Source of the DNA: Acidobacteriota bacterium
GTDB taxonomy: Bacteria; Acidobacteriota; UBA6911; RPQK01; JAJDTT01
DNA: 64,000 nucleotides
Assembly: GCA_028874215.1 (NCBI GenBank)
Contig: JAPPLF010000097.1
Location: forward strand, 1-64,000
Reading direction: 5' to 3'
Positions 26,201 through 28,818 of the stretch are shown piece after piece (positions within the stretch are counted from its first letter, which is position 1; the number at the start of each line of letters is the position of its first letter). The position numbers and the translations under genes are program-made. The notes under the pieces are model-generated. The model was not told the DNA's origin and did not search any database. It saw nothing but the letters and a program-made list of their open reading frames with translations.

Positions 26201-26653
26201 CGGCAACTGGCGCATCTGCTCTTCCTTGATCGTCCCCCCGACTTCCGAGGTCTCGGTCTCGACCAACGGCACCGCTGCCCGGACTTCCACCTCCTCCCCG
26301 ATCTCTCCCACCTGCAGCGTCAAATCGACGCGAAGCTTCGTGGCCAGGTCCAGTTCGGCACCCGGTTCGACAGCCGTCTTGAATCCGGCCATCTCAGCCG
26401 TCACTCGATAGACTCCAGGATCCAAGAAAGGAATTTCGTAACCACCGGTATCCCCGGTCACCACCGAACGGGCGATGTTGGTCCCCAGATGGGTGGCCGT
26501 GACGTCGACGCCGGGCACCACGCCACCGGTGTCATCCTTGATCGTCCCTGAGATGGTGCTCTTGACTTGGCCTTGGGCGCCGGCGGTGGCAAGCACCAGC
26601 AGAACAAAAAGCAGAAGAGCAATCTTGGCAGTACAGAGCGAGGTCTGCATCAT
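23267..26653 (-). CDS. Oar-like TonB-dependent receptor with N-terminal carboxypeptidase-regulatory-like domain
   Basis: I start at an ATG six bases after AAGGAGG. The 1,128-residue protein has a signal peptide (ALLLFVLLVLATAGAQG), then a carboxypeptidase-regulatory-like domain (STISGTIKDDTGGVVPG to TLQVGE, about 25-120). A plug domain follows, with QRGAYTSYTIDGI and NSFFSNRAGADK near 210-290, then a long outer-membrane beta-barrel ending in the aromatic C terminus GLRLEF, typical of barrel assembly signals. Oar-type receptors are abundant in Acidobacteriota and probably import or bind large organic ligands. The nearby symporter and hydrolases suit a nutrient role, which is inferred. Confidence 0.88.
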   Translation of the reverse strand: MMQTSLCTAKIALLLFVLLVLATAGAQGQVKSTISGTIKDDTGGVVPGVDVTATHLGTNIARSVVTGDTGGYEIPFLDPGVYRVTAEMAGFKTAVEPGAELDLATKLRVDLTLQVGEIGEEVEVRAAVPLVETETSEVGGTIKEEQMRQLPLLTRNYQALATLLPTAVTPVPSATGYIPNQNRGNYYQLAGQRGAYTSYTIDGIDSNTVWIQTQSATPSLDSLQEFKVKSHNFSAEQGRGSVQFITTTKSGTNELRGAIYNYNRNDIFNANSFFSNRAGADKNAFNYNQFGANVGGPIRVPGYDGRDQTFFFFAYEGTRFRQSATAFGRFPDPRWLQGDFSSLGQTIYDPYTTVEDANAPAGFTRQPFPGNQIPSNRLSPQAKTLVGLDLIPSPTHDEGTTLPGNSNFLGTKSDPEDINFWTVRIDHVISDSDQIYGRYMESIDRKRRGNVVPLSGTNNDNNMHNAMMSEIHTFSPTTVNELRVGYNRGNWFGGQDGSGDVDYSSDVFGFKNIGGSPLGFGLPSFGWSNYTRVGPTPDAPFGALNNTYQISDNLMTRYGNHSIKLGFDIREIRMRWLAQAGIRGNFTFNGIFTQFPGDTASGSPFADFMVGQAQETWGLAGNGTGYFNQKLWGFYLQDDWRVSPELTVNMGLRYEYYEPWNAIRGDYAVFDFVAPPGSCFQHTTPCPPTPLDAAEPGESYYNADRNNWGPRIGLAYSPFGDNRTVIRASYGIFYSPPDATDQVNGALNPPSNVLRFINPKTLFTDLDTNDMSKLFPVADISRADFPQITGPTWHPSLAGATLHSVTRKFDDAIIQHWQLTVQREVVRNLLVEVGYVGSHGYHGQRRINYNQAQLDPPGVTTPFTTRLPYPDLSNFTFIMEHSAQNNYNAGLLRVERRFDRGLSFISSYTFARTLDDYGNLNDATGFWAQNSYDKKAEKGLSQFHAKHRLSVGYIWEIPVGRGKRFGGDMHPVINGILGGWQLSGITTFQSGSPRIIRPFPRDWSNTGQFWWATRPDKVRTGKVKTLDPRANNLRWFDVNYFANPEVGTFGNTGRGEVLEPGIRNWDLNISKSFHIGETARIQFRAEAYNAFNRAQFFGFGNSVGSSNFGIISATRPPRNIQLGLRLEF

Positions 26654-26988
26654 TTCATCCTCCTTGGCGGGCGAGCGGGCGGGCGTGGAAAAAACTTCCA
26701 CTAGTTGCGGCTGAGCCTACACGGTCTGGTCAGCAACGGTCAAGAAAAAAACAGGGCCACCTCAGGTGCTGTGCTACGCTTGCGTATAGTTTGCAATTCC
26801 AAGCCATTGGATCGGCTCGCCCCGCATGAGCTTTAACCCGCATTTCTCACCAGGTCGCTATGCGTATGACGAAAAAGGGCCTGCATTTGAGCATTTACGC
26901 TAATTTGTCCAAGGTTTCTCCGGGCCATACTGCGCTGGGCGCGCGCTCGCTGGTCTTTTCGCCCTCAGCGCGCACATGCTCCCTCAAA

Positions 26989-27004
26989 CGTAGTCACCAC
27001 TACG
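26989..27004. repeat. perfect hairpin inside the inverted-repeat element
   Basis: CGTAGT and ACTACG form a 6-bp perfect stem with a CACC loop. No T tract follows, so it is not a standard terminator. It probably contributes to the folded structure of the small element. Confidence 0.55.
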
Positions 27005-27040
27005 CTCTCAGTCGCGAGCACGCGGGGATGATGAAGAGTC

Positions 27041-27057
27041 GGCGGCTAAAAGCCGCC
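27041..27057. repeat. GC-rich hairpin inside the inverted-repeat element
   Basis: GGCGGCT and AGCCGCC form a perfect 7-bp stem with an AAA loop. It lies 35 bp inside the right terminal repeat and has no T tract after it. Such short GC hairpins are common in REP-like or MITE elements. Confidence 0.6.
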
Positions 27058-27102
27058 GCTCCGGCGAAAATCCTGCGCGATCGTCACGCCCCCTGGTGAA
27101 AA

Positions 27103-28818
27103 ATGCGGGTTAAGAAGACGATCCATGTCCCGATGGTTCTCTGCTTCCTTTGGGTCTCTGCCTGGGCACAAAAAGAGTCCGGTTCAATCCCTCCCGGGGC
27201 CCGTTTCGTGGATATTGCAGCCGAGGCCGGACTGGGTGATTTCGTCTGTTATTCGGGAGGCATTGAGCGGAAAGAAACCATTCTGGAAACCACCGGAGCG
27301 GGCTGTGCCTTGCTGGATTACGACAACGACGGCGACCTCGACATATTCCTGATGACGGCCAGCCGGAGCGAGGGGTTCGCGGAGAGCGCCGAGCCTTCCA
27401 ACCGCTTGTATCGGAATGACGGCAGCGGCCGGTTCAGCGACGTTACCGGCCAGGCCGGACTGGTGCGATCGGGCTGGGGCCAGGGAGTGTGCGCCGGAGA
27501 CTACGACAATGACGGCTGGATCGATCTCTACCTGACTTACTACGGGAACAATGTTCTTTACCGCAACACCGGAGAGGGCTCCTTTACGGATGTCACCCGG
27601 AAGGCGGGGCTGTACACGAAGCACAGATTGTGGGGCGTGGGTTGCTCGTTCCTGGACTATGACCGGGATTCGGACCTCGACCTGTTCGTCACCAACTACA
27701 TCGATTTCGATCCGGTGACCGCTCCCCGTCCCGGAGAGAATTCCAACTGCCTGTGGAAGGGGATTCCCGTCATGTGCGGTCCTCGAGGCCTGAAGGGCCT
27801 GCCCTCCAATCTCTATCGGAACGAAGGCGATGGGACATTTGCCGATGTGAGCGGGCACGCGGGGATCACCGCCGCCGGTGAAAGATACGGACTAGGGGTT
27901 TTGGTGGCGGATTACGACAACGACGGCTGGCCCGACGTCTACGTCGCTTGCGACTCGACACCCAATCTTCTGTTTCGCAACAACCGTGACGGGACCTTCT
28001 CCGAGATGGGCCTGTTGGCGGGAGTGGCCTACAGCGGGGATGGAAAAGAGCAGGCCGGCATGGGCGTCGACGCCGGGGATTACGACAACGACGGTGATCT
28101 GGACATCGTGAAGACGAATTTTTCCGACGACAAGTCGAGCCTCTACAAGAACCATGGCGACGGCACCTTCAGTGACGCGACGTTTGAAGCCGGGTTGGGA
28201 GTGAACCTGGCATATCTTGGCTGGGGCGTGGGATTTTTGGACTACGATCAGGATGGTTACGACGACATCTTCATCGCCAATGGTCACGTCTACCCGGAGA
28301 TCGACGGCCACGGTTTTCGGTCCCGGTACAGGCAGCGGAAAGTCCTTTACCGGAACACGGGCAACAGCACCTTTGTGGACGTGACCGCATCGTCCGGAGC
28401 GGATCTGCTGCAGCCACAGACGAGCCGCGGCATTGCTCTCGGAGACATCGATAACGACGGGACTCTCGAAATCCTGGTAAACAACGAAAACGGAAGACCC
28501 AGCCTCTATAAGAACTACGGGCCACATGGGAATTGGATCGTCATTCTGGCCATCGGCAGCCGCTCGAACCGCAGTGCGATCGGTACGCGCGTTTCGGCAG
28601 CCTCGGACGGCGGGCGAAGACTGATCAAGGAAGTGCGCAGTGGCGGGACGTACGCTTCACAGAGCGACCTGCGACTGCATTTCGGCCTGGGGCCCGCGGG
28701 AAAGACGGATCTGGAAGTCCGATGGCCCGATGGCTCGGTGGAAAAGTTCGCCGGGGTCGCGGCCAATCAGTTCCTCACCATCAGGGAAGGCATCGGAATT
28801 GAGGGAGACAAAGACTGA
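27103..28818 (+). CDS. CRTAC1 family protein: FG-GAP repeats plus ASPIC/UnbV domain
   Basis: The 571-residue protein has a signal peptide (MVLCFLWVSAWAQ preceded by a basic RVKK). Calcium-type FG-GAP motifs recur: DYDNDGDLD, DYDNDGWID, DYDRDSDLD, DYDNDGWPD, DYDNDGDLD, DYDQDGYDD and DIDNDGTLE. The ASPIC/UnbV domain is at about 480-565 (NRSAIGTRV, SGGTYASQSDLRLHFG). The annotated ATG and its GGTGA lie inside the right terminal repeat of the preceding element; the next in-frame ATG is at 27133. The end overlaps the following TPR gene by about 20 bp. The role is unknown; the protein is likely exported. Confidence 0.88.
   Translation: MRVKKTIHVPMVLCFLWVSAWAQKESGSIPPGARFVDIAAEAGLGDFVCYSGGIERKETILETTGAGCALLDYDNDGDLDIFLMTASRSEGFAESAEPSNRLYRNDGSGRFSDVTGQAGLVRSGWGQGVCAGDYDNDGWIDLYLTYYGNNVLYRNTGEGSFTDVTRKAGLYTKHRLWGVGCSFLDYDRDSDLDLFVTNYIDFDPVTAPRPGENSNCLWKGIPVMCGPRGLKGLPSNLYRNEGDGTFADVSGHAGITAAGERYGLGVLVADYDNDGWPDVYVACDSTPNLLFRNNRDGTFSEMGLLAGVAYSGDGKEQAGMGVDAGDYDNDGDLDIVKTNFSDDKSSLYKNHGDGTFSDATFEAGLGVNLAYLGWGVGFLDYDQDGYDDIFIANGHVYPEIDGHGFRSRYRQRKVLYRNTGNSTFVDVTASSGADLLQPQTSRGIALGDIDNDGTLEILVNNENGRPSLYKNYGPHGNWIVILAIGSRSNRSAIGTRVSAASDGGRRLIKEVRSGGTYASQSDLRLHFGLGPAGKTDLEVRWPDGSVEKFAGVAANQFLTIREGIGIEGDKD

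Follow-up and report, generated by a model that had tools for sequence, protein, structure and literature searches.

The window analysed here is a stretch of 64,000 nucleotides from an Acidobacteriota genome (G000; 5.7 Mb, 97.5% complete), in which a CRTAC1-like gene begins within the right end of a short inverted-repeat element. The features of this locus are listed in Table 1. CRTAC1-like (FG-GAP/ASPIC) paralogues form a large family expansion in these bacteria, with at least 33 members in the window genome and 16–33 in the relatives.

Table 1. Features around the start of the CRTAC1-like gene (positions in the window).
Feature	Position	Strand	Remarks
Displaced native ATG (26826-26828), now opening a 25-codon leader MSFNPHFSPGRYAYDEKGPAFEHLR	26826..26903	+	leader ends inside the element
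Left target-site duplication TTAA	26833..26836	.	identical TTAA at 27110-27113; 4-bp YTAR duplications at other copies
IS1380-type MITE, 273 bp, 18-bp ends (one mismatch)	26837..27109	.
Left terminal inverted repeat CCCGCATTTCTCACCAGG	26837..26854	+	motif also ends other copies and IS1380 elements
Internal hairpin CGTAGT-CACC-ACTACG	26989..27004	.	common to the family; in copies L002-L004
Extra segment with palindrome GGCGGCTAAAAGCCGCC	27028..27062	.	not in 240-bp copies; separate dispersed repeat nested in the subfamily
Right terminal inverted repeat CCTGGTGAAAAATGCGGG	27092..27109	+	holds GGTGA 27095-27099 and ATG 27103-27105
CRTAC1-like gene, FG-GAP repeats and ASPIC/UnbV domain	27103..28818	+	571 aa; Pfam PF13517, PF07593
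Right target-site duplication TTAA	27110..27113	.

The inverted repeat pairs 26833-26854 with 27092-27113 (22 nt, 95% complementary, one mismatch), and no other such pair was found within 26700-27250; as a DNA strand the region folds 4.9 sd better than its shuffles. The original prediction had described these 22-bp ends as the borders of a repeat-element unit with two internal hairpins and had placed GGTGA and the ATG at 27103 inside the right end, and all of this was confirmed, the second hairpin being GGCGGC-TAAAA-GCCGCC at 27041-27057. The predicted length of 281 bp with TTAA outermost was right about the ends but not about the TTAA, which is the target duplication because other copies carry other 4-bp sequences at this place (CTAG, TTAG, CTAA and CTAT among them), usually equal on both sides; therefore the element proper is 26837-27109, that is, 273 bp with 18-bp ends. 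It is short and holds no ORF of 80 aa or more, and the Rfam search of 26600-27300 gave no match.

The copies expected elsewhere in the genome were found there and throughout the genus. BLAST with the 281 bp gave 11 matches in the window genome, including 4 full-length copies and 2 near-complete short forms; full and partial copies together come to roughly ten. The end motif, with up to 2 mismatches allowed, has 11 occurrences, and its reversed control has none. Three further genomes of the same genus have 22–29 element matches each, and beyond the genus hardly any whole element is found. The usual forms in the genus are of about 240 bp and 130 bp, and the 273-bp form of the window was also found at G000:C87 and G003:C82. 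In 88 paired copies the target conforms to YTAR and shows no other bias. One could take the inverted repeat for a chance or static regulatory structure such as a terminator or hairpin, as the strong stem-loop and a terminator-like match at 26936-26949 would allow. Such a structure would not be dispersed in copies with the same ends, varied interior length and 4-bp duplications, and the clean empty sites in relatives refute it, so we give this reading practically no weight. Dispersal, target-site duplication and empty sites are together those of a MITE. The ends themselves reach much further than the element, since YTAR followed by CCCGCATTTCTCACC (one mismatch) was detected in 48 of the 396 genomes of the phylum and the outward end motif is present in many phyla. 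The end GGTGAGAAATGCGGGYTAR is spread in Gammaproteobacteria, Planctomycetota, Acidobacteriota and others (loci L157-L275), where it mostly bounds elements of 120–280 bp; no name was found for this common type of MITE.

The family was assigned through complete elements having the same ends. The ends CCCG(C/G)ATTTCTCACC, with 4-bp YTAR duplications, flank complete IS1380 transposase genes (called by NF033539 above its cut-off), both within the genus and in other members of the phylum. The same-genus example, at G002:C44, is a 1758-bp IS1380-family element with an intact transposase, TTAG on both sides and the same ends as the MITE; the element at G103:C63 is flanked by CTAG on both sides, and its right end CCTGGTGAGAAATGCGGG agrees with the MITE consensus at 18 of 18 positions. 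Because the same ends bound complete IS1380-family elements, the element at 26837-27109 is, as judged from its ends and duplications, an IS1380-type MITE. Its 4-bp duplication lies within the 4–5 bp of the family; IS1247, also of the IS1380 family, makes 5-bp duplications (PMC3281130), whereas the MITE group here makes 4-bp ones. It differs from the IS1380 elements in having no transposase inside, and its interior is unlike that of the two autonomous elements inspected. The suggestion that an autonomous transposase with these ends would be found thus held for the genus but not for the window's own assembly, in which searches with PF13701 and NF033539 detected no IS1380 transposase; at present the MITE has apparently no helper transposase in this genome. 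Other sources were considered and set aside. The YTAR targets had raised the IS701 family, and here PF13546 gave one sub-threshold match, an IS1380 transposase with other ends; no IS701 transposase (PF13546 or NF033540) bounded by the MITE ends came to light, and PF13546 gave nothing usable in the window genome. An IS1380 element at G002:C27 (L047) was rejected as the source as its ends differ, and the transposase-like appearance of the sequence upstream of L008 was not borne out.

The insertion site was compared with two element-free orthologues of the same genus, G001 locus L128 (95% aa identity) and G002 locus L129 (88%). The G001 gene starts with ATGAGCTTTGAGAAG, read as CCGC-ATG-AGC-TTT-GAG-AAG-ACG (MSFEKT), and the G002 gene with ATGAGGTTCGAGAAG, read as CCGC-ATG-AGG-TTC-GAG-AAG-ACG (MRFEKT). 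The empty sites, ..CCGCATGAGCTTTGAGAAGACG.. in G001 and ..CCGCATGAGGTTCGAGAAGACG.. in G002, have TTTGAG and TTCGAG where the element stands in the window, and G001 is collinear with the window on both flanks and G002 downstream and over the last ~90 nt upstream. In the window the native ATG at 26826 is followed by AGCTTTAA and then by the element, and it was correctly foreseen that homologues without the element would differ in start context, as both use the native ATG which is here cut off from the gene. The insertion point is 7 nt after the A of the native ATG, and in the right end, which reads GGTGA-AAA-ATG, the element ATG is also 7 nt from the target. The gene therefore keeps its protein length, 571 aa in the window, G001 and G002 alike. 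Its element-derived start is ATG-CGG-GTT-AAG-AAG-ACG (MRVKK), and compared with the expected pre-insertion MSFKK, codons 2 and 3 alone differ (SF to RV). The earlier view that the basic start of the signal peptide comes from the element is correct for M-R and for one further base, the first of codon 3 (GTT), but lysines 4-5 come from the target-site duplication and the host.

On this basis we propose that a CRTAC1-like secreted-protein gene was hit by a non-autonomous IS1380-type element, which moved into a TTAA 7 nt past the A of the gene's native start codon; the TTAA would thereby have been duplicated and the native ATG parted from its gene. The outward right end of the element family, GGTGA(G/A)AAATGCGGG, carries an ATG 7 nt from the insertion edge and would have restored an in-frame start at the identical distance (ATG AGC TTT AAG to ATG CGG GTT AAG), from which translation would now proceed at 27103 with the aid of GGTGA. 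Genome comparison establishes the insertion, the duplication, the native start in two relatives and an intact ORF under gene-wide purifying selection, and to the account as a whole, in which a MITE removed the native start and its own end replaced it in frame with the length kept, we give a probability of about 0.86.

The main alternative is that the insertion broke the gene and the new ATG is a coincidence, translation failing or starting at 27133 without the basic N-terminus of the signal peptide. The folding predictions speak in its favour, as the new SD and ATG would be buried in the stem of the terminal repeats in a read-through transcript (mean P(unpaired) 0.09), and neither inside the element nor just upstream was a promoter-like site seen, no sigma-70-like promoter being found within 26650-27200. 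Yet the ORF is intact over 571 codons, with NG86 dN/dS of 0.026/0.249 (window-G001) and 0.062/0.474 (window-G002), that is about 0.1 against both relatives, a measure of purifying selection which covers the whole gene and the whole divergence and not the post-insertion period specifically; the intact frame and this ratio argue that the gene is still in use. GGTGA stands 3 nt before the new ATG and is nearer to the SD than the sequence at the native start (anti-SD duplex -5.8 kcal/mol against -3.9 kcal/mol for the native start region). The codon at 27133 is not a conserved start, because residue 11 is Met in the window and G001 alone and not in G002, and residues 4-10 align across the genus, which most likely places the start of translation upstream of this stretch. 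A broken gene is for these reasons unlikely.

How the replaced start would be reached by ribosomes was considered from the same predictions. In read-through transcripts the two ends would pair into a stem that encloses the new start; ribosomes translating the leader peptide from the old start, whose frame spans the left arm, would open this stem and free the new start. The predicted mean P(unpaired) of SD and ATG rises to 0.73 if ribosomes cover the leader and comes to about 0.7 for transcripts that begin within the element. If transcripts do take up the read-through fold with the leader untranslated, the gene may be poorly expressed.

A second start swap of the same kind was found in the same genus. 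At G001:C204 a MITE copy, cut off on its left by the contig end, starts a solute-binding lipoprotein gene with ATG-CGG-GCT-AAC-CGC, and the orthologues in G000 and G002 have the native start ATG-ATT-CGT-AAC-CGC. The N-terminus is MRANRLLLAK in G001 against MIRNRSLLVAK in G000 and MIRNRRLLLAK in G002, the proteins are of 538 and 539 aa with the N-terminal length kept, and the element ATG is again 7 nt from the site. By comparison with these orthologues it is a second, independent swap (MIRN to MRAN). The target preference does not account for the recurring 7-nt offset; the two swaps may share it by chance, and selection for gene-preserving insertions is the simpler reading of both.

In other bacteria, the pabC, thyX, NUDIX and HyuA-like genes likely start at the element ATG; empty sites were searched for these four in relatives and not found. 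For the copies L204 and L207 the left end was not found or the contig came to its end. These cases bear on the idea of a portable initiation module under selection, in which the ends would have evolved SD and ATG to let genes tolerate insertions at their starts. Two exact-length swaps within one genus agree with it, and in a by-eye survey of 251 distinct ends the start-losing genes are mostly in the ATG frame (the window gene, the solute-binding lipoprotein, thyX, pabC, NUDIX and HyuA-like), with L179 clearly and L208 and L041 doubtfully in other frames. In rough terms these are 6 of 8–9 where 1/3 would be expected (uncorrected p about 0.02-0.04). Against the idea, the ATG frame does not exceed the +1 frame in ORFs of at least 100 codons (31 vs 46 of 217), so that it is individual cases which carry the start-module idea. 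Among related ends many have CCCGGATTTCTCACC and hence no ATG, which makes a binding site for the transposase the simpler account of the motif; the bias is explained if insertions were retained through selection acting on the host gene. We hold an end evolved for this purpose to be improbable. The broader proposal, that the ends act as mobile start modules (SD and ATG fixed 7 nt from the edge) which repeatedly replaced native starts across phyla and that in the window the translated leader frees the new start, is put forward tentatively, the odds being rather against it.

Several parts of this picture have known counterparts. In ISEcp1 of the IS1380 family and in other insertion sequences driving their neighbours, the element end alters the expression signals of the adjoining gene by supplying promoters. 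The present end likewise alters the signals of the next gene, but with an SD and a start codon, and the search for a promoter was negative. Rickettsia palindromic elements (RPE) are small in-frame insertions in protein genes which alter the protein (PMC10969869), and the MITE resembles them as a small repeat inserted in frame in a protein gene with the protein altered; RPE, however, add an internal peptide, whereas here the terminal repeat alone is translated and the start codon is replaced with no lengthening. Start codons do not come up in the same review, whose subject is prokaryotic MITEs. A literature search of partial coverage on MITE or insertion-sequence and start-codon topics gave no paper in which a terminal repeat takes the place of a start codon, and a search of likewise partial coverage did not find the end sequence in papers. 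MITEs of IS families and in-frame repeats in Rickettsia genes are already known.

Insertions in the first codons are expected to destroy a gene, and here the event that broke the gene would also have repaired it, in two instances from a single genus. Mobile elements could take this concrete route to rewrite translation starts and the N-termini of signal peptides, and the insertion may add leader-peptide control. For genome annotators it is a caution that a start codon within a repeat can be real.

Two further copies near gene starts were rejected as swaps. At G003:C82 (L282) the copy lies between the stop of the upstream gene and accC, with the element SD and ATG in frame (MRAN-MFRKIL), and the native ATG is kept downstream of the element. 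At G001:C310 (L281) the copy stands at a TTAA just 5′ of an HTH_37 antitoxin-like gene, the element ATG is in frame, and the native SD and ATG are kept.

The nested segment of the 273-bp form is an imperfect palindrome (GTCGGCGGCTAAAAGCCGCCGCTCC and variants) which takes the place of the 3′ half of the internal stem (CTGAG), at 27028-27062 in the window, G000:C87:20056-20080 and G003:C82:3792-3816. A 25-mer of it has 3–7 matches per genome in four same-genus genomes, and this dispersed palindrome may be an independent REP-like element.
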